Source of the DNA: Pegea sp. RAD2-039
Lineage: Eukaryota > Chordata > Thaliacea > Salpida > Salpidae
Direction: 5' to 3'
Length of the DNA: 64,000 bases
NCBI GenBank assembly: GCA_034620365.1
Contig: JAQGEQ010000131.1
Span: 159,592-223,591 of the forward strand
Under the pieces are notes generated by a model. That model had not been told where the DNA came from, ran no database searches, and saw only the letters and a program-made list of their open reading frames with translations. The first letter of the stretch is position 1. The number at the start of each line of letters is the position of its first letter. Shown here in pieces: positions 6,672 through 60,617 of this stretch. Both the position numbers and the translations under genes were made by a program.

Positions 6672-6869
6672 TTGTTTGATTATGAAACACATAACGTTTT
6701 CAAACATAGAATTTGTTGTAATGATATTATGAAACTTGATCAAGCTTCGAATTTTAGTAATGGAGAACTGTCTTTAAGTATAAATAAAGAAATCAAAATA
6801 TTTTTATCACGGAGACTATCAGTTGAAACAAAAGAATTCAGTTTAAAATCACTTAAATATAACCATTAG
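6672..6869 (+). pseudogene. 65-codon open stretch of unknown origin (copy A)
   Basis: The frame opens on TTG, has no upstream ATG, and ends at 6869. The parallel position in copy B (30243-30440) is also open with the same length and stop, while the older copy at 29263-29460 has stops. Aligned by eye, A and B differ at about 12 codons by replacement and only about two silently, so nothing indicates selection on a protein. It may be an exon relic. No domain is recognised. Confidence 0.2.
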
Positions 6870-10145: not shown

Positions 10146-10223
10146 TGAATTGTGTGTGGAAAGCAATTTGGCCATCATGCAATTCTTTCATACCATCAAA
10201 CAACTTACATTATTTAGATTCAA
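10146..10223 (+). pseudogene. truncated seventh zinc finger after the stop
   Basis: In frame beyond the TAA the sequence still reads as a finger: IVCGKQF followed by a HHAILSYHQTT tail. Two adjacent codons are now stops, the expected Glu codon as TAA and the first Cys codon as TGA, and the last His codon reads Tyr. The same two stops occur in copies B and C, so the loss predates the duplications. Confidence 0.65.
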
Positions 10224-22980: not shown

Positions 22981-23480
22981 GAGTCGTATAGTGCTCCCAT
23001 TTTAAAAACAAAAAGTCACATAGTTTTTGATTTAATTTCTTATCGTCAGTACGATTGATCATTTTTAATTTTAGTCATCGAAGTAGAAATAGATTTAAAT
23101 CTAAATTAAATAAAACTTGATAAGAAAAATTAAACTAATTTGGTTTGTAAAATAGTAAACTTATAATAAATTTTCTTATCAACTTGAAAATCAAATTTTC
23201 TATTATAACAATGTTAGTCAACAAAATGCTTATCAATAAAATTAAAAAAATAATTTCATTTGAACTTGATCCCATACACTTCAGATTGCAACAACGTATA
23301 TAAGAAATGAAAAATAAAATAAAGCTCAATCTTTCGTAAAGGATTGCAAATTTTTAAATTTGGAGTTAAAGTACTTTACAACAAAACTTTAAATGATAAA
23401 TAAGTTTAATAACTTGAGTTATTATTCATCACAAAATATGTTTGTAAACATGTTATTGGTAATATCACAGATTTTTTACT
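22980..23480 (-). repeat. inverted copy of one 550-bp satellite unit plus flank
   Basis: Read on the minus strand this reproduces the unit at about 2830-3110 and 4065-4310, including the two-ended module (23261-23386) and the ATCGTCAGTACGAT block at about 23041. It is separated from the main array by about 19 kb, so units of this satellite also occur singly and inverted. Confidence 0.75.
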
Positions 23481-26400: not shown

Positions 26401-26700
26401 GTAAAAATAAAAAATTGTATATTTTGTTAGATGTGTTTTTGCAAAAATAAAATGATTAATCTAGAATTAAATATAAATTTTTAAACATTTATTAAATTTT
26501 AGATATATAGCCAATTCAATCTGAAATATTCTATTTAAATATAATATATAAATATCGTATTGCAGATTCTTCAAAACTATTAAAAACAAAATACATGCAA
26601 TTGAAGAGATTATAGCAAAATTTCTATAAATCACTAGATTAAATTGTGCGTTAATCTAAATTAATTAATCTAAATTAATGTATTTAATAAATCAGTTAAA
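23481..26700. other. AT-rich spacer
   Basis: No gene is seen. A plus-strand two-ended module lies at 24371-24497, with TTCAACTCCAAATTA at its left and AATCTAAAGTTTGTGGGGTC at its right. The rest is A/T-rich with no open frame of note. Confidence 0.6.
23721..23735 (-). promoter_or_regulatory. CGCTA box, closest match to a CTCF-type core
   Basis: On the minus strand the sequence reads CCGCTAGATGGCGC, which fits the known animal CTCF core well. It lies in the same sequence context (an upstream AAAAATTATAATT tract and a downstream AATATCTGAAACTTAA tract) as the weaker box at 22054. Binding is inferred from the motif only. Confidence 0.3.
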
Positions 26701-26729
26701 TTGTATAAAAAAAGTTATTTTTCATAATA

Positions 26730-27300
26730 AATAGGCTAGGTCAAAGTGCTTCGGATAGATCTATTTTTCTTAAATAATGAAGCCTCTTAAATACTTATTA
26801 ACTAAAATTTTTTTGCGTCAAACCAAAATCAAAACTAATTTGTTTTGATTTTTTTTCATTGATAAAAAATGCCGGGCATATTGCCATATGTTTGTAATTT
26901 AAATTTATTCTCTACGCCACAAACTTTATACTGATACAACTTTACAAATACTTTTTAAAGCAGTGAACATTTACTTTTTATCAGATATAATATTTCAAGG
27001 AATAAACAACATTTTGGAGTTGAATAAATTTCAACAAATAATAAAATACTAATAATGTTGACGTGGGCAGTTGTGACATTCAATTTTGTCATCAATTTAA
27101 ATGTTCTATTCCGAAGCTACTTGTATTTTATTATTGATATTAACATTTTTGTGGCTTAAAAGTGGAAAGCAGCTTAGAAATTTTATTTTAAATTATAATG
27201 TTTTCAAACACATCAGAAATTTCTCTATCTGTTGATGTCAAAGATTTAGAAAACTCAAGTTTTTAAACTGACACAACAGATTGATTTTAAATGCTTAATT
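26730..27300 (-). repeat. dispersed repeat family B, inverted copy
   Basis: Its reverse complement matches 48930-49500 and, more loosely, 41780-42190. Shared landmarks are a GC-rich GCCGGGCAT or GGCCGGCAT block, a conserved TTTTGGTTTGACGC stretch and a two-ended module at its core. It is a medium-length dispersed repeat; no coding frame survives in all copies. Confidence 0.7.
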
Positions 27301-28340
27301 TTCATAAATATCAATTTCATTAATTTTTTTTACTAAAGTATATTCCTATAGTTAACTGCATTTTAACAAACTAAATTAACAATGATTACGTTTTTAACTA
27401 GCTTGAGAGCAAAAAAAATTCTACATTTTTTTCTGGTGAAATTGTTGAAAGATCGTTGAAATGTTTATTGGTGTAATTCAATAACTAGTAATCAAGTAAA
27501 ACTCATACCGCACAATTAGTACATCAAACCAGTTGCAACTTGGAGTCAATCCTGTTGCTTAAAAAGAAGTTGAACCGTTATAATGTTGCCAACATTGTCA
27601 TTTCTAAACTGTGACTTTTTTCTTTAAATGTTTTAAATCTGAATTACAAAAGTTTGTCATTTGAAACACTAAATATTCACTTGGTTCCTAAATACAAGAT
27701 CATGATTAAGTGTTTTAACTAGATCATAAGAAACTGTTTTCATAATTGCAGCTATTTATTCATTTTTTATAGTTTTCCTGAATGATGAATTCCTTATCTC
27801 AACTTTTCAATAATATCATTCTACTAAAAGGTTTAACAATTCAAAATGACTTTTAATCGATAATAAAATTTATAATTTTTTCAACATTATCTTATTTGGT
27901 CCTTTAAGTTTTTTGTGTTTTGATATTGGTTGTTAATAAACCTAATTTAAAAAAAATCAATATTAGTTTGCTTAACAATAAAAACAAACTAAAATCATAA
28001 ACTTTGACAAATATTGTACAAAACAATTGTACATTGTTACAAATTACAAAATTACAAATGGTAAATTTTTATTGTAAAAGCTCGGCCGAAAACGGTGATT
28101 TGGATTTGCTATGAGTGATAATAATAAAGATAAAGTAAGAAAAAGTGAGACGCAAAGAAACTAATCGAGCAACACACAATGAAATGCAAAATAAAAAACA
28201 GTTAAAATTTCTCTTTTTTTTGAAGCTAGTTTTTTTCTTTTTCAGTTTATTTGGAAAAGTAACCACCGTGTAGAACAAGAAAATATGATATATTTTATCT
28301 ATTATCTATCAATAACAGGTTGTGTTATTGAATATATTTT
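27301..28340. other. spacer with exon-like islands
   Basis: At 27500-27620 a plus-strand frame of about 40 codons with unusually varied codons (contains SCNLESILLLKKKLNRYNVA) ends at a TGA; its upstream limit could be an AG acceptor near 27490. At about 27645-27700 a short block matches 38745-38795 in reverse. A GC-richer stretch at 28080-28180 has no long frame. These could be remnants of one gene, but I cannot connect them. Confidence 0.35.
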
Positions 28341-28343
28341 CAA

Positions 28344-28634
28344 ATGTTAATATTAATGACAAGAGTTGAAAATAAGATATTTGCAGAACGTCAATTTTTT
28401 GATAAAGTTTATCGACAGATTGTCGATTCCAAAAATAATAAATGCTGCTGTGGAGGCTCACTAACAGAAGAAAATAGTGACAAATTCGAACAATTAGTTC
28501 TCTGTCTTATCAAATGCTTTCGATCTAGTATTTGTCAGGAGGAAAGTATTTTTTCAAACTTTTATTTTTCTCTATTAGTTTCATTTTCTAAAAACTGTGA
28601 GACATTTTTTATTTCTTTGACATCAATCTTATAG
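28344..28634 (+). CDS. unknown 96-residue open frame, possible exon
   Basis: It starts at ATG and ends at TAG, with mixed codon use that contrasts with the A/T spacer. It has a cysteine-rich patch, KCCCGG, near residue 33, an acidic middle and a hydrophobic C-terminal third. No domain is recognised. An AG acceptor with a pyrimidine-poor tract lies just upstream at about 28318, so it may be an internal or first coding exon. It sits immediately left of the duplicated segment's partial copy; it is not repeated elsewhere in the window. Confidence 0.35.
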   Translation: MLILMTRVENKIFAERQFFDKVYRQIVDSKNNKCCCGGSLTEENSDKFEQLVLCLIKCFRSSICQEESIFSNFYFSLLVSFSKNCETFFISLTSIL

Positions 28635-28684
28635 AAGATTATTTCTTACTTCTAGGTGTGAAATACATTTTAGTTTCAATTTTT

Positions 28685-29696
28685 CAAGTATTTCTTTAAT
28701 GTTAAACAAATGAAAATACTTTTTATGTAAAGCTAGTTGTATGAGTTAGAATAAAAACTTTACAATTATTTAAAAATAATGTTTTATAAGTTCAAAATCT
28801 TTGAGCAAGACTATTTATCTAACAGATATAAGGATAAGACATTTACAACTTTACAAAATATGAAAATAAAACTATTATGGGGACATCTTGTGGCTGGGAA
28901 ATAAATTTTAAAATGCAATATTATTCTGAAAAATTTTATAATTTACAGTCTAATAAATTAAATTACAATAAAAGTGAGACAGACTGCAAATAATTTGTTG
29001 ATTATTTTAATTGATTTGATTGAAGTAATTTTTTTTCTGACTTTAAATAAATTGTCATGGTAGAAGTTGTTATAACATTGTTCTATTTAATCTGACTAAT
29101 GTTATTCTAACCTTATTTAGTTATTGTTTGAAAGCAGTTGATTAAAATTAGTTTTTTTATTTAGTATATGATATAATATTTATATATTAGATTATTTTTA
29201 TATAGTTATATACTATTAGTGAATTATAGTTTGCATTATTTGGTTATTTTGGAGAATAATGTTTGTTTGATTACGTCACACATAACGTTTTTGAACACAA
29301 TATTTTTTGCAATGATTTTTTGAAACTTAATCAAAATTCATAGTTTAGTAATTGAGAATTGTCTTTAACTATAAATAAAGAAATCAAAAGATTTTTATCT
29401 TCGAAGCTATAAGTTGAAACAAAAGAATTCAGTTTAAAATCACTTAAATGTATTCATTATGAGAACATGCAATACTGAAACAATCATAAAAATTTTTATC
29501 TTTAATGACTTGAAAAGTTGTTTATAAATTTTAAAAACAAATATTGTTTATGTTTACAAAATGACTTTATTAATGTTTTAGCACTGATTAAAAACTTTTT
29601 TTTTTTTCAATCCTTACACTTAGTTAAGAAAAATATTTTGAAACCAATTTTTTTCATTTTTCTGAAGTTTATATAATTCAGTAAAAAATTGTAATT
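28685..29696 (+). repeat. older partial copy of the segment's left end
   Basis: This ~1-kb stretch aligns with 6175-7100 and with 29697-30670 that follows directly, so the left end of the segment is tandemly doubled here. It is more diverged than the neighbour and closest to the left end of copy C, sharing GAGCAAGACTATTTATCT-like and CTTCGAAGCTATAAG-like variants with it. Confidence 0.7.
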
Positions 29697-30242
29697 CTTT
29701 AATGTTAAACATATTAAAAATACTTTTTATATAAAGCTAGTTGTGTGAGTTTGAATAAAAATTTTATAAATATTAAAAAAATAATGTTTTGTAAGTTCAA
29801 ACATTTTGACCTATTTATCTAACAGATGTATGGTTACAACATTTGAAATTTAATAAAATATGAAAATAATACTATTATAAGAACATTTTGTTGCTAGAAA
29901 TAAATATCAATATGCAATTAAATTCTAAAATTTTTTGTAGTTTAGTGTCTACTAAAATAAATTCCAATAAAAGTGAGAAAAACTGCAAATAATTTGTTGA
30001 ATTCAGTTTTTCTCTGACTTTTCATAAATTTACATGGTAGAAAATGTTGGAAAACCTTTTTTCTTTATTCTTACTAATGTTATTCTAAACTTATTTAAGT
30101 ATTAAACAAAAACCAGTTTATTCAAATTAATCTCATAGTTATTATATATAAATGCAAATATATTGAAAAAATTACTGTATTTTATTTTACAATATTGCTG
30201 TGAATCATAGCTTACGTTCTTTGGTTACTTGAGGCAAAACGT

Positions 30243-30440
30243 TTGTTTGATTATGAAACACATAACGCTTTAAAATATAGAATTTGTTGTAATGATTTTA
30301 TGAAACATGATCAAGCTTCAAATTTTAGTTATAGAGAACTGTCTTTAAGTATAAATAAAGAAATCAAATTATTTTTATCACAGAGACTATCAGTTGAAAC
30401 AAAAGAATTCAGTTTAAAATCACCTCAATATAATCATTAG
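30243..30440 (+). pseudogene. 65-codon open stretch of unknown origin (copy B)
   Basis: Counterpart of 6672-6869 with identical length and stop position but about a dozen replacement differences. It opens on TTG. The preserved frame most simply reflects recent duplication. No domain is recognised. Confidence 0.2.
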
Positions 30441-32933
30441 AAGAACATGTAATATTGAAACAATAAAGACAATTTTTACGTTCAATGATTTGAATTGTTG
30501 TTTAAATATTTTTTCTAACATATTGTTTATGTTTACTTAAGGACTCTTTTGGTCTTATAGACTTGCTTAGAAGGTTTTATAATTTTTTTCTAAACTATTT
30601 ACATAGTTCAACAACTAATCTGAAAACAAATTATTCATTTTTAAAGGTTTTTTAATTCAGTGAAAAACATTATCCGCTAATTTTGATCAGTTTCAATTGT
30701 TTATCAGAACAGAAATAACTAAACATTGCAAATATCAAAGATACTATTGATGTAATATTTATTAAATAACTTTTAGTTCTTTAAACATCTTAGATATAAA
30801 TCTCATCTTAATACTTTCATTCTGAATTTAGTGAATCACTGTGAAATACTATTGCTATTTTATACCCGTAGTTATTTCTTAGCAAGTACAAGTTTAGATA
30901 ATGAATATTACAATTTAATTAACTATTAATGTGTAGTGGTTTACTAATTTAGAAAACAAGTTTCAAAAGAAATAATAGTTTTTTACATGAATCTTTTCGG
31001 TCAATATTCAAATAAATAAGTTTGCAATTATATTATTGATACTTGGTATTCATAAACTTCTTTATAAAATTTTTATTTTTGATTGCTTTTTATTTTTAAA
31101 TAAAAAATGTATAATTGCTTTGTACATTTTAAACAAAACTTTGCAAAGAAAGTTATTACATGAAAATTGTTCTTAGAAATTTTATAATGAAATTTTTTGA
31201 AATTGCAGAAAATTTCAAATTTTAAAAATACTTCAAGCGCCAGTTAGCGAAACTAAAAAACAATCTTACATTTTATTGGTTTTTATGAAATTTATTTGCA
31301 TAAATTTTATATTATAGAGAAATAGAATTACTTATAAATAAATATATCTCTTAAAAAAGTATTGCAGAAATTGTATTTACAACACATTTGTTATAATTCT
31401 AAAATGAAATAAAAAGAAGATATTACTAACAACCTTATTTTCACACAAAAATGCTTTACCAATTATTAAATATAAACAATTTTATATTGATGTAATTTTT
31501 ACTAAAACAAAATTATTGATATTATTTCTGCTTTTAAAAAAATTTGAAATTTTAAGGTCAAACTAATTATAAGCATCTTTAATACTATAAAAATCAAATA
31601 CAATTACTAAATCAAGATTTTACATTTGTAATCAAAAACCATTTATTATTTAAGACATGCATATATCCGTTTCAAACAATTTAAACATATTAAACAGTTT
31701 TCAAAATAACTTCTTCTCGCTACACACTACTTTAGTGGGTTTATAAATGTCAAACTTTATACTGAAGAAATAAGATATAGTCTATAAAAATTGAAAACTT
31801 GTATTTTAAAGTATACAATAGAAAATGTTAGAAAATGTTGTTTGTGTAACTCCATAGTAAACACAAGAAACTTCAGTTTTGTAACTACAATTGCAATCAA
31901 ACGATTATGTTAAGCAGTTTACTATTGACATAGTCATACAGATAAACAATATTAACATAAAAACTAATTTGAAAATTTGGTTTCGATATAATTTGGAATA
32001 ATTAGTTTGTATCACTTTATGCAAATTTATAAAATATATTTCTGGTAACTAATAAGGTATTTCTAGATATATTCCACTTAAAATTGTGAATTAGATTTAC
32101 TTTCGTTTATCAAATTTGTCTCTTTGTTTTCCAGAATATTTTTTGCTGACAGTAGTACCTTACAGCTTTATGTATATTTGCTGCAGTCAATCTAAGATAA
32201 ATAATAGTTTTTGGAAGAAAAATATATTTTGATTTTTAAAGCCAAGTTAAAAAAAAACTTATTTTCCCAAAATTATGATTTATATTCCTAAAAATTGGCT
32301 TCTGGTAGAACGATCTAAAAATATATTTTAACTTTCTTTCCAAAAAAAGTTAAACACCAAACTTCAACTGATCAATTTAAAAACAATGCTTAGTAATTAT
32401 AAAAGTGTATTTGCTTATTTTTTTATTTACATATCTGCTTATATATAACATATTTTTCAGGTAAACATTTATTTCAAATCATCAAAAATTCGAAGAAAAG
32501 AGCAGAAAACTCAGCATTAAGAGATGTTACAAAACGTTTAATAGAAATATCTAAAGATAACGTTGAATGCTAAAGACTTTTTGTCAAATGTTGTCAATTA
32601 GAAAGCTTTTGTCAGGCTATTTTGAATTGTTTACTTAAATTTCTGTTGTAGTATTGAATATGGCAATAAACCACTTTAAAATTTACTTAAGATATTTTCT
32701 TGTAAAATATATATTTATTCTGTAAGAAACTGTGAATAATTGTTTTTGGGTCAATTTTAATTCTTTTTGAAAATAAACTATAATTTTATTTTGCATAGAA
32801 ATCAACAAAAAGTTAATTCAGATTACAATCGAATTGATTTGTATATAATATATTGTTTTTTTTTAACTTTTTATTACACTAAAAGCTAAAACGTTTTGTT
32901 TACATGTAGCTCAACAAGTTGAAACTGAATTTA

Positions 32934-33716
32934 ATGGACGACAAAGAATTTGATTGCATGCGAAAGTTGTTACCAAACGAAAGTAACATCAGAGGTGAAA
33001 CACCTAACAAGAAAAATGATAATGAATGTGTTAGGGAATTTGATAGCTGGCACGGAATTAACTTTGATGAAGTCAGTTTAAACAATGAAATAGAAAATAA
33101 AATAACTAAGAAAAGCGTTTCTACCAAAATTAGTGCTTCAGCAGAAAATAGTGGAAAAGAAGAAAACAAAATTTTGTTTAAGAAAATTTCAAATGGCAAA
33201 GACAAATATGAATGTTTGATTTGTTGTAGACGCTTTAGTTACAGATCTCAGTTTATTGTTCACGAAAGAATTCATACTGGAGAGAAACCATATGAATGTA
33301 TTGTTTGTAGAAAAAAGTTTAGTAAAAAATCACATCGCTTATCACATGAAAGAATACATACTGGTGAGAAACCATTTGAATGTATTGTTTGTGGAAAACA
33401 TTTTAGTCAAAATTCAAACCTCTTAGCACACGAAAGAACTCATACTGGTGAGAAACCATATGAATGTATTGTTTGTGGAAAAAAGTTTAGTCAAAGTTCA
33501 ATCCTCTTAAGACACGAAAGAACACATACTGATGAGAAACCATTTGAATGTATTGTTTGTGGAAAAAATTTTAGTCAAAATTCAAACCTCTTATCACATG
33601 AAAGAACTCATACTGGTGAGAAACCATATGAATGCTTTGTTTGTGGTAAAAAGTTTAGTCGAAATGACCTTCTTTCACAACATAAAATAAGTCATACTGG
33701 TGAAAAACTAATTTAA
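32934..33716 (+). CDS. C2H2 zinc-finger protein, six fingers (copy B)
   Basis: A 260-residue paralogue of the protein at 9363, same start, length and stop. The N-terminal 91 residues are polar and lack a known effector domain. Six 28-residue C2H2 fingers follow from residue 92; here finger 1 keeps the canonical CLIC pair, so all six have full zinc ligands. Linker 4 is TDEKP instead of TGEKP. Helix positions -1/2/3/6 of fingers 2-6 are K-S-H-S, Q-S-N-A, Q-S-I-R, Q-S-N-S and R-D-L-Q. Compared with copy A the changes fall on contact positions 3 and 6 of fingers 2-5 while finger 6 is unchanged. By family knowledge it should be a nuclear DNA-binding regulator; the target is unknown. In the N-terminal part seven of eight changed codons are replacements, which argues against strong purifying selection. 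Confidence 0.75.
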   Translation: MDDKEFDCMRKLLPNESNIRGETPNKKNDNECVREFDSWHGINFDEVSLNNEIENKITKKSVSTKISASAENSGKEENKILFKKISNGKDKYECLICCRRFSYRSQFIVHERIHTGEKPYECIVCRKKFSKKSHRLSHERIHTGEKPFECIVCGKHFSQNSNLLAHERTHTGEKPYECIVCGKKFSQSSILLRHERTHTDEKPFECIVCGKNFSQNSNLLSHERTHTGEKPYECFVCGKKFSRNDLLSQHKISHTGEKLI

Positions 33717-33791
33717 TGAATTGTTTGTGGAAATCAATTTCGCCATCATGCAAGTCTTTCGTACCATCAAACAACTTCCATTAATTAGATT
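33717..33791 (+). pseudogene. truncated seventh zinc finger after the stop (copy B)
   Basis: Same remnant as downstream of copy A: after TAA-TGA the frame reads IVCGNQF and a YHQTT tail. The shared nonsense codons show that the six-finger form is ancestral to the copies. Confidence 0.6.
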
Positions 33792-35429
33792 CAAAGTAAT
33801 CAGAAAAAAGATCATATAAAGATCAATTTTGTGTCATCCTAGTTTTTAGTATTTCTTGTTTTATTTTTATTATTTTTCTAACAACATTTTAGAGTTTCGT
33901 TGGTTTTAAGTATTTCTGATTTTTCCTTGTAATTTCAGCAAAAAACGTTTATGTTTATTTAAACGGTTATTTATGGTTATAGTAACTCTTTAGTGTTATT
34001 GACTATATACTTGAAAGCTTTTATCTCTTATTTTTGTAACTTTTAATTTGCAAACGGTTAATTGGTGTAAATCAATTTTCAATCTCTTAAATAGATAAAC
34101 AAAAGTTGGTTAAATAATGAACTTACAGAGCAGAATTTAGATAAATGTGAAAGTGTTAAATATTACAATGTAGCAATGTTACTCTTTTTAAGAAAAGGAA
34201 TTTTGCAAGTTTTGCTTATAATAAAATAAAATTAAAATAGCAAATAATCGAGTATTTTGATGTAAGTGGCAACAATAAACATTATTTTAAAACAAAATTA
34301 CTAAACTTATATTTTCTATCACAATTTTAAGAAATGTAACAAATTTTTACGTAGTGAACGAGTCGAGAAAAGATCTTAGGTTTAAATAATTGATATTTTA
34401 TTAATCATTTATATCTCATAAAATTTTGAGATGCTTGATTTTGAATTAGAATGCATAAAATAAAAGAGTTCATATGCAACCTTTTAGTAAGGTAACTAAC
34501 ATTCAAACCAAGAAGCAAACGAACAATATTTAGTAGTTGTGGAAGCACAAGGAATATCTTCAAAAAAATTAATGAAATTTATGTGATACAGCTTAACCTC
34601 TAAAGATCTCAATTATGAGAATAAGAAAATTTAAAATAAATTCATACTGTTTGGAAAAATAGATTTTCAAATAGAAAAAAGAATAGTATTTTTAATCACA
34701 CTATAGTTAAATAAATGTGTTTAATTAAATAAACCTAAATAGATACTGGTATTATATAGCATGTAAACGCGATGATAACATTTTATTTGAGTCTTATTAT
34801 GAGAAAATGAAAAGTTTTTTTGAAAAATTAAAAGATTATTCGATATTTTTTAACAAATCGTTTGATAAAAATTTGTTTCAGATTTTATTATAAGTACCAT
34901 AAACATAATGAATTGTGATTTAACTTATAACTTAAATTAGATTTCACTATAGATTGCTAGTTTACTGCTAACTAGCGGAGGTTTAATTTCTTGTATAAAA
35001 TTTTTGTTATACACTTTGCTGTAAACGAAATAAATAATTTATATGTTTGGTTATTGTGTTGTTTTTTTTAAATATATAATATTGTTTTTAAGGTAAGAAT
35101 TATTTCAGGAAAAAAAAATCTAAGTTTATTTTTTTCCTGAAATTTTTCTTTGAAATATTTTTGCCGAACAATTAAGATTAAATAATATTAAAAAAATAAA
35201 AACAATTTAAAATTCATCTTCAGTCAACTATATTAGAGAATATTTCAAAATCTTAAAACGAAAAGAATATATAATTTGTAAAAGGTTATCATTCACTAAT
35301 ATTATCACTAACTTCCTTTCTTAATTTTACTGCAATTTTATTTTAAAGTTGTTTAATTCAGTTATAAAACAAAATTTTTTTCATAATTTTAATAATCTAG
35401 GCTAATAAGTTAGGCTAACTAAGATCGAT

Positions 35430-35745
35430 ATAATTTTCGGATGTTTTTAAGTGGAATAGAAAAATTTTTGACTTTTGAAGCATTTATAGAGATTTGAGGT
35501 TAATACTGGGAACAAGAAAACAATCTTCAAACAACATATTATCTTTACTTTGAAAAACTATTTTCTTTAACACTTTCTTCCAATGTATAAACATAATCAC
35601 TAAGCTGTAAGCTCTTATAGATACTTTTGTTTAAATATAAACCAGTTATAATAATTATATTAAACTCGATAGTCTTGATACTTGCATAATTGCAAGAACA
35701 AACCAACTCAATTAACCAATCAAAACAAACTAAAGTTGACTTAAG
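35430..35745 (-). pseudogene. inverted fragment of gene X (copy B)
   Basis: On the minus strand it corresponds to about 36450-36710 of the forward gene, containing LYLNKSIYKSLQLSDYVYTL-like sequence. It is the direct equivalent of the right end of copy A but is cut off at about 35745. From there a forward copy begins after about 10 bases, giving a head-to-head inverted arrangement. Confidence 0.65.
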
Positions 35746-35754
35746 TGTGCAAAA

Positions 35755-37854
35755 ATTGCTTTACCTAGATGCGTTTATTGGATATCTCAAGATGATAATT
35801 TTAAGGTATATAAGCTAAAAGATTTTAATGTAAGTAACTTTTCATATGAAATGGTTTTAGTAAAAATATTTTTTCACTTTGGAGTTGCATATTCTTCAAA
35901 GAAAAATAAATCAGTGAAAGATCATTTTGTTTGTTTGCAACTTTTGAAACATTGTTTGATAAATGCTGAAAGTTTGGATTCATCTAAAACTTTGCTGAAC
36001 TTTAGGACAATTTCTTTCTTGTCACAAATTCTAAAGGTGTTTATAACAACTTCAAAAACAAACTTTAAGCAAAATAACAAAAGATTTGCTGAGTTTGTAA
36101 AATACTTTTCTTTCTCTTCATCCCCGACAAATACGTCACACTCTCAATATGGTTTAAATAAACTACAAACGTAACTGTCATTATTAGATGGGTATGCTAC
36201 CAAAACCATATATTTTCAACAGTGCCAACTTTGTTACTCTTCAGCTTATGAGAAAACAGCAACATTTATTAGAGAACTTGTAATGTATTGTGACTTGCTT
36301 CTATTTGTCCAATTATCAAATGCAAATCAAATATATGTTCTTAGACAAATTTTTTGCTCAAAAGAGATTCACAAATTATGCGAAACTGAATTTACCAAGC
36401 ATGTAATTGAGACTGAGAAATCATTGATTATTACGCTTTCGTCAGCTTTAGTTTGTTTTGATTGGTTAATACAGTTGGTTTGTTCTTACAAATTTCCAGG
36501 CTTTAAATCTAATGAATTGAAGAAGATTGCAAACGGTTTATATGTAAACAAAAGTATCTATAAGAGATTAGAGTTCAGTCATTATGAGTACAAACTGGGA
36601 GAAAGTCTTGGAGGAAAACAAAAACATGTTTTTCTTAGCAATGAAGGTATAATTTCTCTTATGAATGATGTTTTTTGTTTTCAGTATCAAACTCAACGAT
36701 TTTAAAATGCTTGAGAGATCAAAACACATACCGGTCTATTTCTAAATGTTTGAGGATGATATTGTTGTTAGTTACTCTTGCTTTTGCTCTAAAGAAACAA
36801 CTGAATATTTGTTTAGTCAAACTGCTGATTAATATTGATAGGAAAATGTCGCAAGATTGCTTTTTAAACAAAAAAAATACGAAGGAATACTCAAGTGGTG
36901 AAAAATGTCAATTTTTAGATAAAATGTTTTATACAGTTATTGATAAAACAAAGAAATATGACAATTTGTTTGTAAAATACGTGATGCTTAAAACGTTTTT
37001 TGATTGTTTATTGCATCAATTGCTTTTATCACCATATAAAACTACACTAGATTTATTTGCTTTTGTTGAGTTTCCGTTTGAATACACAATTTTCCAAATT
37101 GAAAAACCAGATTCATCACAAAACTATTTAGACCTTTTTTTATACTTTGATAAAGAAAGACATCGTTTTATTGGTCTTACCAGTTCTATCTTACAGGATG
37201 ATTTCTTAAGATTGCCTGTAAATTTTATTGCCACAGAATCAAAAAAGATAAATGATTTCAAAAAGGATATAATCCTGAAATTTCACCAGCATTCACAAAT
37301 TCCGAAGGAAGAAATTGAGCCGATTTTTAAATCAATATTTTTACTAAAACGAAAAGTTTGGTTGTTTACTTTGCTAGCTGCTAAGTTCATCGATTATACA
37401 AAAGAACATAAGAGACATGTAATAATAAAGTTAAAATTTTTTCTTACGGGAACGAGTTTCCATTATTGTATTGGATGGAATAATTTAAGTATGATAAATT
37501 TTGAAGGATGGCTGATAATGATAAGAAGTTTGATGATAAATAATTCAAATTCTGCTAAATTAATAGTAGAAATTTTACAAAATTTCTTCTTATTTGAAGA
37601 GTTTGCCTAGCTTGTTGGATGATAGAATTACTCCATCTAATGAAGAATGTTTTTTTAAACTAATTACCTGCATTCTAGTAACTGTTGAAGAAGTATGCAA
37701 CAGTTTTAATGAAAGCTCTGCTTTTAATTTACAGACCAATTTGTTGAATGAATACTTATCAGTTTTAGAAGATATCTCTAAAATAAATAGAAAACAATTT
37801 ACCTTTAAAAATATTTTAAGCAAACTTAACGATCTACCTACAACGCCATCTTGA
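35755..37854 (+). CDS. gene X: multi-exon gene of unknown function, 5' end disrupted
   Basis: One reading path is open across three very short GT-AG introns: exons 35851-36151, 36188-36646, 36685-37565 and 37600-37854, with introns of 36, 38 and 34 nt. From the ATG at 35851 the joined exons total 1896 nt, a 631-residue product. An in-frame TAA at 36172 and an apparent frameshift near 37600 both fall away on splicing, which supports the introns. The frame is open upstream to 35740 and includes CVYWISQDDNF, also present in the copy-A pseudogene, where about 20 more codons precede it. The true N-terminus is therefore probably cut off at the inversion point. The product looks mostly alpha-helical with scattered cysteines, no signal peptide and no motif I recognise; the last 85 residues loosely recall helical-repeat proteins, too weakly to name. 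Either a working gene with an internal start or a 5'-truncated relic. Confidence 0.5.
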
Positions 37855-38809: not shown

Positions 38810-39265
38810 GTTATTACTATGACGTCACATGATTGTTGTTTTCTGAAAAAGTCATACATGGAGATGAAATCTTTTGATCTCGTTTTATGGTTACTTGTAG
38901 TGACGTCATCAAGTAGAAGTTTGGGAAGCTACAGCAGGCAAAAAATTTAAAAAGATCTTAAGATTATTTTGTGAACAAATTTGACGTCATCAACTTTGAT
39001 AAAAAAGAAGTAAAATTAAATTTTGAATCAACAACTGATAAACTGATAAACGGGTAGGATTGATTGACGTCATCATCATCAATGTGATGATAAAATTGAT
39101 TAAGACATTATGATAGTTTATCTTCATATGATATTTGAAGTGGTGATAGCACTGATGATGTCATTAATAACTAGTCATAAGTGTGTGAGTTTACTTTGAA
39201 AACTATTCGAATTAGTCTACGTCATCATAATCCAATCTGATGGCGTCATTAGTTTGAACAGTTTA
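38810..39265 (+). repeat. TGACGTCA-rich dispersed element, copy 1
   Basis: It aligns along its length with 55785-56215. It carries four exact TGACGTCA palindromes (38820, 38901, 38983, 39065) and several near-matches such as TGATGTCA and TGGCGTCA. TGACGTCA is the cAMP-response-element consensus bound by bZIP factors of the CREB/ATF class. In DNA this poor in G+C the density cannot be chance. The sites are followed in most cases by TCA or TCATCA, giving TGACGTCATCA. Confidence 0.75.
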
Positions 39266-41650: not shown

Positions 41651-42700
41651 AAATATTGAAGCTCAAAAATTTATAGATGTCAAACACTTTTGTGTTGAAT
41701 ATATAACCTGTCATTAAAAATTAAAACAAAATTTGAAAAATGTATTCCAGTTTAAGGCTACAAAATTATGGATTTCATTAGTAAAATACAAGTAGCTTCA
41801 AAATAAGAGTTATAAATTGACGACAGAATTGAATGTCGAAACTGCTGACGTCAACATTAAAATTATTTGTTAAAATTTATTCAACTCAAAATTTGCTTTT
41901 TTCTGTAGGTTTTACAGATGCAGAAGTACAAATTTTTAATGGTCTCATCAGTATTTATAAAGTTGTTTCAATCTAAAGTTTGTGGCAAACAGAATAAGTT
42001 CAAGTTACAAACGTATGCCACAATGCCCGGCATTTTTTCATTACTGAAAAAAAATTCAAAACAAAATAGTTTTGTTTTTGGTTTGACACATAAAACTGTT
42101 TAGTAAAGATTTAATTAGGATGCTTCATTAGTTTGAGAAAAGTAGATCTACCTGAAGCACTTTGACTGAGCCTAGTTATTATGAAATACTTTTTTATACA
42201 CTTTACCTAATTGTTGAACTTTTATTTATTTTTTTATCAAATATACATTTAAGCTATTTTTAAATAAGTTAGAATTTGTTTGTATCAAATTTTAAACTTT
42301 TGTTTTCTTAAAGAAATTTATTGCAAAACCATTAAAACAACAAGAAATGATTGGTTTTTTAACATGTAATTTTTATCTATCAAGATTATGAGAATCATAA
42401 AAGTTTAATCAAAATGTCAAAAGTAAACGATAGTATTTACCTGAATAAATAAAAATCTAGTATAATATTTTCTAAGAAGAAAGATACTAAACTTTTTTAC
42501 TAAAAAAGAGATTCTAAAAATATTAGCAAAATGCTTAGAACAAGTTTTGAAACTTAATTGCAAACATTAATTGCGCTAAGCTAGCATCGCAGAAATTACC
42601 AAGGTGACACTGAGTACAGTCATAAACTGCCTACGGGGCTCCAACTCTGGCTTCAGCTCAGAGTTTTGCATCTTCTAATCTCGTAATAAATTTTCTTTAA
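41650..42700 (+). repeat. dispersed repeat family B, copy 2
   Basis: It aligns with about 49020-50310 in the same orientation and in its first half with 26730-27180 in reverse. It contains a GC-rich core (GCCCGGCAT), a two-ended module at about 41875-42010 and a right end at 42590-42690 that is notably GC-rich and ends near TTTTGCATCTTCTAATCTCG. No frame is shared open between copies. Confidence 0.7.
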
Positions 42701-43354: not shown

Positions 43355-45200
43355 GTTATTATGGTAGCGTTAAGTGAAAACAAAAAGGATTACTTCTTTA
43401 TACTACTAGTAGCATGATGGCATCAATACAACGAAAAAAGAAACAATTTGTAAATATTTAAAATCTCAATCTACATATTCGCTTACTTACGACAGAATCA
43501 TTCAGAGTTTAACAAGCAAAAGAAAGACACAAAATATGAAAGAAATATACAAGTCCAGAGCATTCTTCATATCGTTATATATCGGTGATCTTTTCGTTAA
43601 ATGCAACTGACAGTATCAGTTTTCAAATTTAAAGTAAAATTAAAAGCTATACAAGCAACAGTTTGTTAATCTGTTATAAAATTGAATGCCTTATATGACA
43701 ACTTATTTTCTTTTTGTTTGTGAGCTCATTTCAAACACTTTTATAATACTTTTCACACAAGTGTTAAACTATAAACATGTGTAAGACATCTTAATAAAAG
43801 ATTATTTCTTGTTTGAAATTAATTGTTTACTTTATATATTTAAATTAGAACTTTGAAAAGAGTAAAAACAAACTTCTTGAAACAATTTACTTTATTTAAA
43901 CTACATTTAATGTTGATTTTGCTTCAGAATAAATTCTGCTGTTGGCAGGTTATCTATGAAGGCCAACTACAAATACTCAAATGAAATGATTTCAAATCTT
44001 CTGAATATTATGCTGAGCTAAATTTGTTATTGATTACTATAAGTCTAATTAATAAAGATGACGTCATCAGCATCTCATAGATTAACATGTTTTTTTGAAT
44101 TTTACAAGAAATTGTTTACACCGTGTCAGCTTTACTGAGAACCAAATCAAGAATGTTGGATTAATATTAAATCAAGAGAGTTTAATAATATCTGTACTAA
44201 CATCTATAAGTGAAGAATAATTTATATCATTGATATATAGTAGCGTTAGCTGATTAAGACTAACTTCAGATATTTAACAAAAGTAAAATGACGACAATCA
44301 CACAACAGACCATTAGATTTATGAAAAAGAAGTATGTTAGTTATGATTTATTCATACCAGCGTCGCTTAAAAGTGATAAGCAACTAAATAATGAAGCCAA
44401 TAAACTTGGATAACATAAAATGTTGTTATTATACATTGCAAATGGTTTGTAGTTCATCAGTGTTAATACAATTATTCAAAATATATTATGATATTATATA
44501 AATTAGTTGTTTTTCTATATAAAGATAATGACATCAACATAACAAAAGCACAAAAGTTTAGAATTTGCAAATGATTCAATGAAAATTAAGATTATAGATG
44601 CTTGCTTACTTTTGGTATTGTCTTTTAAAATTAAACAAATTTAAATGAAAAATTCTAGAAAAAATTTTATGACATTGGTACGTTCTATTTAATAAAAGAT
44701 AGTTTTAGGATTAAACGCAACTGACAATATCAGTTTTCAAATTTTCATGTTGTCTTTTTTTTTTAATGATTCGATAAAATTTTAAAATCAGGATTTGAAT
44801 TATATCATTAGTACTATATTAATCACTTGTCTAATTTGTACTAAAACATTTGAAAATATCCATGTTTTCTATAGACGAAAACAAATTAAGGTTAGTTTTT
44901 TTGATCTCACAGAAACGATTTTTACAAGTGAATTTTTATCTTAGTTTATTGCTGTTTTTAAATTACTTATCAAATTGTTTGCTGAAGTAGTTATTTTCTA
45001 TATTTAAGAACAGTAGTTTTGTTTTCTATTGAAAGTATTTAGTTATACTTCAATGGTCTATTAGTTTTGCCAAGCAGTGATGATAACTGCCTAGCAAGCA
45101 AGGGGTCGTTGTTGCGGTTGCAAATAAACACATATTACTTACTAAGAAAACTCAAAATATACAAACAGGTAAAGGGCTATTGATTCCTGCAAAATGACAA
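43355..45200 (+). repeat. dispersed repeat family D with interrupted right half
   Basis: The parts 43355-43985 and about 44880-45200 align with 60650-61290 and 61310-61590. About 0.9 kb between them is absent from that copy; it holds one TGACGTCA (44059) and a further partial family-D piece at about 44690-44745. The left part contains the hairpin AACTGACAGTATCAGTT at 43605-43621. The right part contains the tRNA-like stretch at about 45061-45135. Confidence 0.7.
45061..45135 (+). repeat. tRNA-like, SINE-like stretch (copy 1)
   Basis: It has a box-A-like TTGCCAAGCAGTGATGATAA, a partly conserved anticodon-type arm and a box-B-like GCGGTTGCAAAT, spaced as in a tRNA. The better-preserved sister at 61450-61520 keeps a perfect anticodon-arm stem. 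The shared sequence continues about 80 nt past the tRNA-like part, as in a tRNA-derived SINE. Confidence 0.4.
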
Positions 45201-55414: not shown

Positions 55415-55675
55415 ATGGTGGATCCACATAAAACTACCAAGAACTTACAATCGAATATAAAGAAAAATTCTGACAAACAAACTTCATCAAAGCAAGACTG
55501 CAATGGCAGTTGCCAATCTTGCAATAAGATTTTCTCTGGTGAAGATCCGGTAATAGAATACTCTAAATATATCTCCTGCTTTCATCTCAACTTTCCTGCT
55601 TTGACCCTTAAATTGTTTGTAATTTGGTGTTGTCACAAAACCACTGGTTGCATCATCATCAATATAAAATCATAA
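55415..55675 (+). CDS. small ORF with an eroded PHD-like zinc motif
   Basis: ATG to TAA, 86 residues. After a polar, Lys/Ser/Gln-rich N-terminus comes CNGSCQSCNKIFSGEDPVIE, followed by SKYISCFHLNF. This has the layout of a PHD finger (C-x2-C, an ECDSC-like turn, then FHL.C), but several positions expected to be Cys are Tyr or Phe (EYSKY, LNF), each one base from a Cys codon. PHD fingers occur in chromatin readers and in some LINE retroelement proteins. This is probably a dead fragment or short exon; it lies directly upstream of the TGACGTCA element. Confidence 0.35.
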   Translation: MVDPHKTTKNLQSNIKKNSDKQTSSKQDCNGSCQSCNKIFSGEDPVIEYSKYISCFHLNFPALTLKLFVIWCCHKTTGCIIINIKS

Positions 55676-55689
55676 ACGTCCAACTCACA

Positions 55690-56215
55690 AACTTATCATG
55701 ACGTCATCAGCATCATGTAGTTAAACAACTTTGAAAGCAATAATGAAGTCGCCAGTGGAAGAGTTGATGACGTCACTAAATTTGATTATACTATGACGTC
55801 ATATGATCGTTGTTTTCTGAGAAAGTCATTTATGGTAGTGAAGTCTTTTGATCTGGTGGTATTGTTACTTGTAGTGACGTCATCAATTAGTAGTTTAGAG
55901 AAGCTAAAGAAAGAAAAATATTAAACGATTTTAGGATTATAAATAATGTTGTTAACAAATTTTACGTCGTCAGCTTTGATAGAAAAGAAGTAAAAACCAA
56001 TTTTGAATCAACAACTGATACACTGATAAACGGGTAGGATTGAGTGACGTCATCATTATCTATGTGATGATAAAGTTGATTAGGACATTCAGATAATGAT
56101 AATGACGTCATCAGTTTATCTTCATATAACATTTGAAGTGATGATAGCAACGATGACGTCATTAATAACTAGTCATAAGTGAGTGAGTTCACTTTGAAAA
56201 CTACTGGAATAAGTC
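55690..56215 (+). repeat. TGACGTCA-rich dispersed element, copy 2
   Basis: Seven exact TGACGTCA palindromes start at 55699, 55768, 55794, 55875, 56045, 56103 and 56154, most within TGACGTCATCA. The sequence is closely similar to 38810-39265 in the same orientation but has about 20 extra bases around the 56103 site. A 66-codon frame on the minus strand (56162-55962) corresponds to a broken frame in copy 1 and is probably incidental to the repeat. Confidence 0.8.
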
Positions 56216-56362
56216 TTAGTGAATTCTAATTTTCGTTATCAGTTAAACCACAACTTATTATATTTATTCTGCTTATAATAGAAACTGAAACTTTTTTATT
56301 TTAAACTAGTTCTAAAAAAACATCGAATAAGTTTTTTAATTTTTCATAAAAATCTTTTCATT

Positions 56363-56388: not shown

Positions 56389-59300
56389 TCATAATAAGAC
56401 TTAAATAAAATGTTATCATCTGGCTTAAATGTTGTATAATACTAGTATCTATTTAGATTTATTTAAACACATTTATCTAACTATAGTGTGATTAAAAATA
56501 CTGTTCTGTTATGTTATTTGAAAATTTATATTTATAAACAGTATGAAGTTATTTTAAATTTTCTTATTCTCACAATTGAGATCTTTAGAGGTTAAGCTGA
56601 ATCAGATGAATCTCATTAATTTTTGGATGATATTTCTTGTGCTTCCACAACTACTAAAAATTGTTCGTTTGCTTCTTGGTTTGAATGTTAGTTATCTTAT
56701 TAAAAGGTTGCATATGAACTCTTATATTTTATGCATTCTTGTTCATAATCAAGCAACTCAAAATTTTATGAGATATAAATGATAAATAAATTATCAATTA
56801 ATTAAACCTAAGATCTTTTCTTGACTCGTTCAGTACGTAAAATTTTGTTACATTTCTTAAAATGTGATAGAAAATACAAGTTTAGTAATTTTGTTTTAAA
56901 ATAATGTTTACTGCTGCCACTTACATCAAAATACTCGCTTATTTGGTTTTTTAATTTTATTTTAATATAAGCCAAACTTGCAGAATTCCTTTTCTTAAAA
57001 AGAAAAACATTGCTTCATTGTAATATTTAACACTTTTTCACATTTATCTAAATTCTGCTCTGTAAGTTCATTATTTAACCAAACTTTGTCTATCTATTAA
57101 AGAGATTGAAAATTGATTTACACCAATTAACTGTTTGCAAATTAAAAGTTAAAAAATTAAGAGATAAAAGCATTCAAGTATATAGTCAATAACACAAAAG
57201 AGTTACTATAACCATAAATAACCGTTTAAATAAACATAAACGTTTTTTGCTGAAATTACAAGAAAAAATCAGAAATATTTAAAACAAACGAAACTCTAAA
57301 ATGTTGTTAGAAAAATAATAAAAATAAAACAAGAAATACTAAAAACTAGGATGAGACAAAATTGATCTTTATATGATCTTTTTTCTGATTACTTTGAATC
57401 TAATTAATGTAAGTGGTTTGATGGTATGAAAGACTTGCATGATGGCGAAATTGATTTCCACACACAATTCATTAAATTTGTTTTTCACCAGTATGACTTA
57501 TTTTATGTTGTGAAAGAAGGTCATTTCGACTAAACTTTTTACCACAAACAAAGCATTCATATGGTTTCTCACCAGTATGAGTTCTTTCATGTCTTATGAG
57601 ATCTGAATTTTGACTAAACTTTTTTCCACAAACAATACATTCAAATGGTCTCCCACCAGTAGGAGTTCTTTCAAGTGATAAGAGGTTTGAATTTTGACTA
57701 AACTTCTTTCAACAAACAGAACATTTAAATGGTTTCTCACCAGTATGTGATCTTTCATGTGATAAGAGGTTTGAATTTTGACTAAACTTCTTTCCACAAA
57801 CAATACATTCAAATGGTTTCTCTCCAGTATGAATTCTTTCGTGAACAATAAACTGAGATCTGCAACTAAAGCGTCTGCAACAAATCAAACATTCATATTT
57901 GTCTTTGCCATTTGAAATTTTCTTAAACAAAAGTTTGTTTTCTTCTTTTCCATTATTTTCTGCTGAAGCACTAATTTTGGTAGAAACGCTTTCCTTAGCT
58001 GTTGTATTTTCTATTTCATTGTTTGAACTGACTTCATCAAAGTTAATTCCGTGCCATCTATCAAATTCACTAACACATTTATTTTCATTTTTCTTGTTTG
58101 ATTTTTCACCTCTGATGTTACTTTCGTTTGATAACAACTTTCGCCTACAATCAGATTCTTTGTCATCCATTAAATTCAGTTTCAACTTGTTGAGCTACAT
58201 GTAAACAAAACGTTTTAGTTTTTAGTGTGATAATAATTAAAAAAAAATAATATATTTTATAAAAATCAATTAGTTTGTAATCTGAATTAACTTTTTGTTA
58301 ATTTCTATGCAAAATAAAATGATAGTTTATTCAAAAAAGAATTAAGATTGAATCAAAAACAGTTATTCACAGTTTCTTAAAAAATAAATATATATTCTAC
58401 AAGAGAATATCTTAAATACAATTTAAAGTGGTTTATTGCCATAGTCAATACTGCAACAGAAAATTAATGAAAGCAAACAATTCAAAATAGCCTGACAAAA
58501 GCTTTCTAATTGACAACATTTCACAAAAAGTCTTTAGCATTTAACGTTATCTTTAGATTTTTCTATTAAACGTTTTTTAATATCTCTTAATGTTGAGTTT
58601 TCTTCAAATTTTTCAAATTTTTGATGATTTGAAATAAATGTTTACCTGAAAAATATGTTATATATAAGCAAATATATAAATAAAAAAATAAGCAAATACA
58701 CTTTTATAATTACTAAGCAGTGTTTTTAAATTGATCGATGGAAGTTTGGTGTTCAACTTTTTTTGGAAAGAAAATTAAAATATATTTTTAGATCGTTCTA
58801 CCAGAGACCATTTTTCAGGAATAAAAATCATAATTTTAAGAAAATAAGTTTTTTTTTAACTTGGCTTTAAAAATCAAAATATTTTTTTTCTTTCGAAAAA
58901 TATTATTTATCTTTGATTGACTTCAGCAAATATACATAGAGCTGTAAGCCACTGTCAGCAAAAAATAATCTGGAAAACAAATAGACTAATTTGATAAACG
59001 AAAGTAAATCTAATTCACAATTTTAAGTGGAATATATCTAGAGAAACTGATTTAGTTACCAGAAATATATTTTATAAATTTGTATAAAGTGATACAAACT
59101 ATTGATTCCAAATTATTTCCAAACCAAATTTTCAAATTAGTTTTTATGTTAATATTGTTTATCTGCATGACTACGTCAATAGTAAACTGCTTAACATAAT
59201 CGTTTGATTGCAATTGTAGTTACAAAACTGAAGTTTCTTGTGTTTACCATGAAGTTACACAAACAACAATTTCTGACATTTTCTATTGTATACTTTAAAA

Positions 59301-60617
59301 TATAATTTTCAATTTTTATAGACTTTATCTTATTTCTTCAGTATAAAGTTATAAGCCCACTAAAGTAGTGTGTAGCGAGAACAAATTATTTTGAAAGCAG
59401 TTTAATATGTTTAAACAATTTTAATTGTAATAAATAATAATGTAATAATTGTATTAAATTGTAATATTCATTATTTAAACTTGTACTTGCTAAGAAATAA
59501 CTACAGGTATAAAATAGCAATAGTATTTCACAGTGATTCACTAAATTCAGAATGAAAGTATTAAGATGAGATCTGTATCTAAGATGTTTAAAGAATTAAA
59601 AGTTCTTTAATAGATGTTACAACATCAGTATCTTTGATGTTTTAACTGCTTACATATTTCAGTTCTGATAAACAATTTAAACCGATCAGAATTAGCGGAT
59701 AATGTTTCTTACTGAATTAATAAACCTTTAAAAATAGATACTTTGTTTTCAGATTAGTTTCTTAACTATGTGAATAGTTTGGAAAAAAATTATAAAACCT
59801 TCTAAGCAAGTCTATAAGACCAAAAGAGTCCTCAAGTAAACATAAACAATATGTTAGAGAAAATAACTAAACAACTTTTCAAGTCATTGAACGTAAAAAT
59901 TTTCTTTATTGTTTCAATATTGCATGTTCTCAAAATAAATGCATTTATGTGATTTTAATCTGAATTCTTTTGTTTCAACTTATAGCTTCGAAGATAAAAA
60001 TCTTTTGATTTCTTTATTTATGGTTAAAGACAATTCTCAATTACTAAACTATGAAGGTTGATTAAATTTCAAAAAATCATTACAAAAAATACTGTGTTCG
60101 AAAACGTTATGTGTGACGTAATCAAACAAACATTATTCTCTAAAATAACCAAATAATGCCAACTATAATTCACTAATAGTATATAAATATATAAAAATTA
60201 TCTAACAGATAAATATATAATATCATATACTAAATAAAAACTAATTTTAGCCAACTGTTTTCATACAATACCTAAATAAGGTTAGAATAACATTAGTCAG
60301 ATTAAATAGAACAATGTTATAACAATTTCTACCATGACAATTTATTAGGTGTCAGAAAAAAACTGACCTCAACAAATTATTTCCAGTCTGTCTCACCTTT
60401 ATTGTAATTTATTTTATTAGACTGTAAATTATAAAATTTTTCAGAATAATATTGCATTTTAAAATTTATTTTCCAGCCACAGGATGTCCCCATAATAGTT
60501 TTATTTTCATATTTTGTAAAGTTGTAAATGTCTTATCCTTAGATCTGTTAGATAAATAGTCTAGCTCAAAGACTTTGAACTTATCAAACATCATTTTTAA
60601 ATATTTGTAAAGTTTAC
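56389..60617 (-). repeat. large segmental duplication, copy C (inverted)
   Basis: Read on the minus strand it runs in the same order as copies A and B, from the left non-coding part near 60617 to the position corresponding to 11230 in copy A. It lacks about 0.75 kb present in A (around 7340-8080, including the CGCTA box) and the gene X fragment. It is more diverged than A is from B, and its left end resembles the partial copy at 28685-29696. Confidence 0.85.
57472..58170 (-). pseudogene. dead C2H2 zinc-finger gene (copy C), five fingers
   Basis: The ATG at 58170 corresponds to the starts of copies A and B. The length to the equivalent stop is 699 nt, exactly 84 nt (one finger) shorter than 783. 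Finger 1 is canonical. A TGA at 57709-57711 replaces the Gly codon after the second Cys of finger 3, and in the same finger both zinc-binding His are lost (SLERTPTGG in place of SHERTHTGE). The later fingers are intact, so the decay began in finger 3. A protein ending at the stop would keep two fingers. Confidence 0.85.

Follow-up and report, generated by a model that had tools for sequence, protein, structure and literature searches.

The genome of the salp Pegea sp. RAD2-039 (105.7 Mb in 387 contigs) contains, in the 64-kb stretch of contig JAQGEQ010000131.1 analyzed here (positions 159,592 to 223,591 of the contig, G000:C275:159592-223591, hereafter the window), an array of seven exact copies of the palindromic octamer TGACGTCA, embedded in a dispersed repeat. 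The octamer is identical to the cyclic AMP response element (CRE), the site of the CREB/ATF dimers of the basic leucine zipper (bZIP) class. Genome-wide counts, local mismatch statistics and alignments of site-bearing exons leave evenly poised the proposition that a DNA signal, consisting of TGACGTCA at the center of the 14-bp palindrome TGATGACGTCATCA, is iterated throughout the genome, with the seven-site array as a local case.

The array in the window and the repeat that carries it

Thirteen exact copies of TGACGTCA occur in the window, the G+C content of which is 19-28% (2-kb bins). Dinucleotide-preserving shuffles yield a mean of 0.27 sites, with a maximum of 2 in 100 shuffles, in agreement with an earlier note on this DNA, made from the sequence alone, that had put the expectation for the window below one site. 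The sites listed in that note, namely seven at 55699-56161, four at 38820-39072 and a single one at 44059, are exact without exception, and a further site, absent from that list, is found at 41846 (Table 1).

Table 1. Palindromic sites, repeat copies and a possible exon in the window (window coordinates).
Feature	Coordinates	Strand	Remarks
Repeat copy with the seven-site array	55610..56216	+	Query positions 11-617, the portion common to more distant copies
TGACGTCA site 1	55699..55706	.	Reads TGACGTCATCA
TGACGTCA site 2	55768..55775	.	Reads TGATGACGTCA
TGACGTCA site 3	55794..55801	.	In both window copies of the repeat
TGACGTCA site 4	55875..55882	.	Exact in 22/22 aligned copies
TGACGTCA site 5	56045..56052	.	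Reads TGACGTCATCA
TGACGTCA site 6	56103..56110	.	Reads TGACGTCATCA
TGACGTCA site 7	56154..56161	.	
Second, shorter repeat copy, four sites (38820, 38901, 38982, 39065)	38815..39218	+	Match C275:198406-198809, 82% identity
Single TGACGTCA site, not in the earlier note	41846..41853	.	
Isolated TGACGTCA site	44059..44066	.	
Possible first coding exon, ATG to GT donor	55415..55549	+	Read by eye

The genome search shows both arrays to be copies of one repeat, as the note had proposed when it described a dispersed repeat with a homologous element at the second array. With window positions 55600-56300 as the query, at least 52 matches were obtained, including the window's own two; 40 of the 59 candidates were scored, so that 52 is a lower bound. 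Several matches are 79-82% identical across approximately query positions 11-617. Twenty copies were fetched and aligned, giving an alignment of 22 copies, and the conservation of nine sites was assessed in the 18 copies that were kept after near-identical rows had been left out. The mean column diversity of these sites is 0.100, compared to 0.137 in random windows of eight columns (P = 0.064) and to 0.159 in base-matched columns (P = 0.002-0.003), both P values being weakened by the shared ancestry of the copies and by the selection of the sites by exact match. The question posed in the note, whether the sites are better conserved than the bases around them, is accordingly answered in the affirmative against base-matched columns and not in the unmatched comparison. 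One repeat site is exact in all 22 copies, and three, two of which are located at the 5' end, exceed the background mean diversity (0.159, 0.198 and 0.226). Together, these values lend mild support to constraint on the sites within the repeat as well. As to the proposed control region moving with the repeat, the array in the window does reside in a repeat, but the repeat explains a small part of the genomic sites. If the possible coding exon just upstream (Table 1) holds, the array would be intronic.

In addition, a block containing a C2H2 zinc-finger gene, with finger repeats of 84 bp, is found at window positions 6400-12200, 28900-36500 and 56600-60600; the block is duplicated at a distance of about 23.6 kb, and a further, inverted copy is located near the end of the window. 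Three neighboring open frames of 144, 176 and 313 codons at 35740-37610 yielded no Pfam match at an E-value of 0.1.

Abundance and exactness of the palindrome

Across the genome, the extended word TGACGTCATCA is present at 16,229 places (8,239 + 7,990), compared to 79 (34 + 45) for the reversed-word control, and the full 14-bp palindrome TGATGACGTCATCA is present at 1,972 places, compared to 0 for its reversed control. Local statistics were derived from a 298-kb sample that comprises the window and additional loci, many of them chosen for the motif or for a dense domain, and covers approximately 0.3% of the genome. In the 180 cores of this sample, the three bases beyond each core end are T in 69%, C in 53% and A in 65% of the cases, and the base composition equals the background past the seventh base from the core center. 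The slightly extended site TGACGTCATCA that the earlier note had suggested is therefore a real extension, but a two-sided rather than a one-sided one.

Given that the genome-wide counts cover the extended words, the total for the bare octamer was estimated from them. Subtraction of the full palindromes from the extended words (16,229 - 1,972) leaves 14,257 places, which, divided by the sampled extended fraction (102/163), correspond to about 23,000 copies of TGACGTCA. A second estimate, based on 12 stretches fetched irrespective of the motif (L025-L036), which contain 20 cores in 76 kb, 19 of them in two stretches, gives about 28,000. Any core at all is present in 3 of these 12 stretches, and four stretches chosen as a site-poor contrast (L021-L024) contain one core in total. 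We estimate the number of TGACGTCA copies in the genome at some 20,000-30,000.

Among all octamers in the 298-kb sample, TGACGTCA has the highest z-score over the dinucleotide expectation; higher plain ratios are reached by the minisatellite word GGGGACCC and by the rare CGCGCGCG. The excess falls off steeply with mismatches. When shuffles preserve composition within 500-bp blocks (five shuffles), the sample contains 180 exact sites against 1.8 expected (100-fold), 137 sites with one mismatch against 66.4 (2.06-fold) and 873 with two mismatches against 868 (1.01-fold). In the 82.9 kb that bear islands of sites, the corresponding counts are 142 against 1.1, 60 against 28.5 and 318 against 302 (20 shuffles, 400-bp blocks), so that exact sites outnumber all one-mismatch forms combined. 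Chance or composition as the cause of the excess is ruled out by the dinucleotide shuffles and the control words. Assuming stationarity, these ratios would correspond to a scaled advantage of exact over one-mismatch sites of approximately ln(100/2), that is, near 4.

The one-mismatch forms are not raised uniformly. Four of the 12 one-change classes are raised in the islands, albeit with small counts: TTACGTCA 6.8-fold (15 occurrences), CGACGTCA 7.5-fold (5), TGGCGTCA 6.0-fold (4) and TGATGTCA 3.7-fold (19); the remaining eight stand at 0- to 1.8-fold, and the same four classes are raised in the whole sample. The form TGATGTCA would result from CpG decay as well. Because TTACGTCA, a transversion, is raised and the plain transition TAACGTCA is not (0.45-fold), a protein reader of the CRE class appears to fit better than decay. 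The raised variants include the CRE motifs TGATGTCA and TGACGTCG of Table 1 in PMC1796609, and TGACGCCA and TTACGTCA are orthologous forms of CREs in its Table 2, a comparison drawn from these two tables rather than from the whole set of 46 CRE variants in that paper.

A 20-bp minisatellite at a RABGAP1-like locus (L011, 4762-6781) contains GGGGACCC 59 times. The raised words GCTATGGC and ATAGCAAC were considered as an X-box and rejected, their source probably being a 15-bp minisatellite in L019.

Sites in islands, exons and tiny introns

When the cores were masked, the remainder of the sample contained DNA similar to the surroundings of 36 of the 180 sites, 12 of these being the window's own and 10 located in a single locus (L028), and none for the other 144; given that the sample is 0.3% of the genome, this test is weak when taken alone. 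Positions 1000-2700 of L015, with 18 sites, belong to a 2.7-kb stretch with 30 sites and have one match in the genome, namely themselves. The unrelated flanks of the 180 cores, the 144 sites without similar DNA and this single-copy stretch speak against repeat copying as the general cause. A frame within this site-rich part of L015 matches BTB, and nine sites fall within 194 codons there.

Other sites lie in exons that can be aligned with proteins of known structure. In the BRCT exon of RFC1, the segment GKVTGNVSKKT of the solved protein (2ebu) aligns without gaps to GRMTSAVSGKT at the site, and in the AAA exon of the same gene SLKAIVAESLN (6vvo) aligns without gaps to SLRDDVMEYLN. In a KIFC3-like kinesin exon, the site encodes GDVI, which KIFC3 (5wde) also has. 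The CROT and FERM-phosphatase frames contain one site each, within Pfam matches. The gap-free alignments indicate that sites can arise by substitution, apparently making use of existing protein residues in some cases and changing them in others. Both reading frames in which the palindrome avoids a TGA stop are used: the coding DNA chosen for this count (6.9 kb) contains 17 sites, 11 in one frame and 6 in the other, although the pieces were picked partly for holding sites and one of the 17, in L011, is uncertain as coding. Since both open frames are used and sites occur in non-coding DNA and introns as well, a cause at the protein level, such as amino-acid runs, was rejected.

In RABGAP1 and RFC1, the coding alignment is broken by a stretch of 50-51 bp that begins with GTGAGT, ends with CAG or TAG and holds two sites, after which coding resumes (the resumed coding was translated by eye). 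The RABGAP1 sites, first candidates for exonic sites, were counted as intronic, since they lie in GT-AG stretches resembling tiny introns. Donor hexamers of the form GTRAGT begin 6 to 15 bases ahead of a core in 12 cases, compared to about 1.6 expected. Genes for tankyrase and a RhoGAP are also near sites, although the aligned parts missed the sites themselves; for the RhoGAP piece, the best match listed is a repeat protein (BURRH), with RhoGAP proteins next. Our own reading is the source of four labels, namely RCBTB, GLA, PH/BCR and that of the tankyrase PARP piece. Tiny introns interrupt some of the site-rich genes, unlike CROT, PIG-S, TBCD and the FERM-PTP gene (L018, L021, L024 and L016), which are single frames of 550-1,198 codons with 0-1 site.

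The sites are strongly clustered. On contig C1, 66 of the first 100 TGACGTCATCA places listed fall within 258 kb of 2.47 Mb, and up to 32 sites are found in one 10-kb stretch. At 8-30 bp from the core center, the G+C content is 0.38 and the ratio of observed to expected CpG (CpG o/e) is 1.07, compared to 0.30 and 0.61 at 250-500 bp. In 12 site-bearing pieces read as coding, some of which may contain tiny introns, the G+C content at third codon positions (GC3) is 0.24-0.54 and the CpG o/e is 0.72-1.43; two site-free pieces from the same neighborhoods have a CpG o/e of 0.91 and 1.13. The six site-free frames analyzed (two SEFIR, PIG-S, TBCD and two zinc-finger genes) show GC3 values of 0.18-0.26 and a CpG o/e of 0.24-0.69, and the frames with one site show a CpG o/e of 0.93 (CROT) and 0.70 (PTPN-FERM). 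The E-box palindrome TCACGTGA is also raised, with 17 occurrences against 2.0 expected (about eightfold), and is enriched in the same islands (L001, L011 and others); one copy is located in a RABGAP1 intron, next to two cores.

Within nine gene stretches read in their presumed sense direction, TGACGTCATCA occurs 47 and TGATGACGTCA 41 times, and TGATGTCA and TGACATCA occur 4 and 6 times, respectively. This absence of strand bias favors a substrate of double-stranded DNA. Pairs of sites separated by a gap of 4-30 bp (27 spacings) number 5,212 in the whole genome. Spacings of 20-21 bp account for 882 pairs and those of 25-26 bp for 378, compared to 386 for an even share of two in 27; in a list of 55 pairs, which come from C1 throughout, a spacing of 20 occurs 10 times and one of 21 occurs 4 times. 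Two helical turns would be compatible with a pair of dimers sharing one side of the DNA.

Several other features were recorded at loci outside the window. The end of C1 (L030) contains a piece of a 28S ribosomal RNA gene that breaks off into AT-rich DNA and is followed by a second partial copy. At G000:C14:72156-74718, a match to glycosyltransferase-2 (72156, 61.5 bits) and one to GH6 (74494, 27.5 bits, with a cut-off of 27) lie on one strand, 1.8 kb apart; GT-AG introns, some of them near 50 bp in length, were read by eye in the GH6 locus. This pair is reminiscent of the cellulose synthase joined to GH6 that is a tunicate hallmark, and on this ground the sequence itself would be assigned to a tunicate with moderate confidence. 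A search of the genome for SL1 RNA gave no match, and control genomes gave none either; COX1 was looked for without success.

Possible causes and known counterparts

A CRE-class bZIP dimer is a plausible candidate for the most natural reader of TGACGTCA. The bZIP reading of the earlier note is in keeping with the palindromic, strand-neutral and exact core, the CRE-like variants and the two-turn spacing; its view of the array as mainly a feature of a mobile repeat is not supported, given the 144 sites without similar DNA in the sample, the single-copy stretch and the sites in exons of conserved genes. The flanked form GATGACGTCATC is presumably the in vitro optimum of JDP2/ATF7-type dimers, which our literature search did not confirm. 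Under the mechanism that we propose, CRE-class bZIP dimers (of the ATF, CREB or JUN type) would bind the sites, with neighboring dimers lined up along one side of the helix, and would keep the chromatin of the islands open. New sites would arise from near-matches via point mutation; their retention would be due either to biased gene conversion or to selection that is weak for any one site but acts in a large population. The occupied islands might then act for the gene as intragenic enhancers, which is a first guess and the least certain step. Our best reading, in which confidence and doubt are equally matched, is that TGACGTCA marks CRE-class bZIP sites that are selected or driven by conversion and are gathered in islands within gene bodies.

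Several observations weigh against this reading. Much of the sample originates from dense places, so that densities are inflated, the ratio of exact to near sites being less affected. The 12 matches to bZIP_1 in the genome provide candidate readers, but their number, taken in this genome alone, gives no sign of an unusual one. Some of the pairs spaced by 20-21 and 25 bp represent tandem arrays, including four short chains among the listed 20-21-bp pairs and, at 25 bp, a chain with a minimum of nine pairs. The rise in G+C and CpG in the islands is partly a selection effect of choosing a word that contains CpG and is no main argument, given that 155 control words of equal composition show a G+C content of 0.346 and a CpG o/e of 0.93, compared to 0.376 and 1.14 for the core. 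Nor is the steep mismatch ladder unique: a C. elegans word, with no function assigned in the analysis concerned, has ratios of about 79-, 2.3- and 1.6-fold and in its first two steps resembles TGACGTCA (100- and 2.06-fold), bearing in mind that the ratios in that paper use another kind of expectation than the ladders here (PMC1939737). In Ciona, CREs lack a bias to start sites (PMC1796609), and of the Ciona enhancers that PMC11001920 discusses for a CRE-containing motif, a single one has the motif within its minimal active element.

Among the alternatives, it is rather unlikely that the palindrome is a signal for recombination hotspots or gene conversion. In this scenario, as at ade6-M26 of fission yeast, bZIP-bound CREs would open the chromatin for meiotic breaks, the islands would bear the imprint of GC-biased conversion, and conversion or linked benefits would amass exact sites. 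Break-attracting sites are normally lost by conversion, which predicts a deficit of sites rather than a 100-fold excess. The G+C-rich and CpG-full islands, the CpG contrast between the 12 site-bearing coding pieces and the six site-free genes, and the fading of the rise within about 250 bp all accord with a hotspot, but island composition is, as stated, partly a selection effect. M26 itself offers a precedent, being a CRE-like ATGACGT within a coding frame that is bound by Atf1, yet not every CRE is hot (PMC9775316).

Molecular drive of the short word itself, resembling that of HIP1 or uptake sequences and caused by a bias of repair, methylation or conversion unrelated to transcription, is improbable. 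It would account for a short, exact palindrome that does not spare genes and for a steep ladder of the kind seen with HIP1 in Synechocystis (about 1,130-fold for exact and 11-fold for one-mismatch forms), with the uptake word of Actinobacillus (A. pleuropneumoniae; about 146- and 11-fold) and with the C. elegans word (PMC1939737). However, the second rung of only twofold and the CRE-like nature of the raised one-off forms fit a protein reader, and the strong clustering described for C1 is at odds with an even spread.

Repeat sequence alone, that is, copies of mobile elements or minisatellites that imported the sites and are now decaying, is very improbable as the general explanation. It holds for the window's own array as well as for certain tandem arrays, and 36 of the 180 sites do have similar DNA in a sample that covers 0.3% of the genome. 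By contrast, 144 sites have none, the L015 island is single-copy, and site-bearing exons align to solved proteins without gaps at the sites. Moreover, copying followed by decay leads one to expect a high second rung, as with a human word linked to Alu-like repeats (about 147-fold for exact and 11-fold for one-mismatch forms; PMC1939737), and the one-mismatch excess of TGACGTCA is only twofold. Least credible is a signal at the RNA level, in which palindrome copies pair in the transcript or aid the splicing of tiny introns: any two copies can pair, and several introns of about 50 bp carry one to three sites just past the donor, in line with the excess of donor hexamers, but this cause is disfavored by the strand symmetry, which extends to the wobble-compatible TGATGTCA and the incompatible TGACATCA, and RNA pairing is not preserved by the raised variants TTACGTCA and CGACGTCA.

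Homotypic clusters of CREs have been described before, and so have iterated palindromes. Apparently unreported is an animal genome in which an exact bZIP-type palindrome reaches such a density, in exons and tiny introns; among the top-ranked results of a search of open-licence papers, no report of a genome-wide excess of TGACGTCA or TGACGTCATCA was found. A satellite probe for fluorescence in situ hybridization in Caenorhabditis, Ca_SR8, includes TTTTGACGTCATCAGTTCAA (PMC13370393), which is probably a coincidence, though it adds another animal in which a satellite contains the motif. Regulatory sites of animals are usually degenerate and largely non-exonic, and here one exact site is kept in an estimated 20,000-30,000 copies, exons included. 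If the reading of TGACGTCA as selected or conversion-driven bZIP sites is true, a transcription-factor (or recombination) code would be readable from sequence alone, and selection or conversion acting on DNA motifs would override protein sequence.

The closest likeness in sequence is to the CREs of other animals. In vertebrates, CREs are concentrated in the 150 bp that precede the start site (PMC1796609); the sites described here are also located in exons, tiny introns and repeats. Within the tunicates, a 1.8-kb Spalt-like notochord enhancer of Ciona contains 10 copies of TRTGACGTCA, a statistically significant motif the function of which is called variable (PMC11001920). This cluster represents a tunicate likeness, although there the motif is described for enhancers of a few genes and here it is genome-wide and exonic; together with the lack of start-site bias in Ciona CREs, it would fit a tunicate-wide habit. 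The likeness to ade6-M26 consists in a CRE-like site inside a coding frame, M26 being a matter of single sites. We know of no genome-wide excess of M26 sites. With HIP1 of cyanobacteria and the bacterial uptake sequences, TGACGTCA shares the great excess of a short word and its sharp drop once a single base is changed; in Pegea, the excess extends to coding as well as non-coding sequence. Unlike these, the sites in Pegea are clustered in islands and not evenly spread, and they belong to a eukaryote, with no uptake or methyltransferase system implied. It is a tentative suggestion, which we hold with more doubt than confidence, that the palindromic word is driven or selected at the DNA level and substituted into conserved exons, where it would partly dictate the amino acids (DDVI, MTSS, VTSS), as a counterpart of HIP1 and the uptake sequences that would be read by bZIP dimers in helically phased islands.
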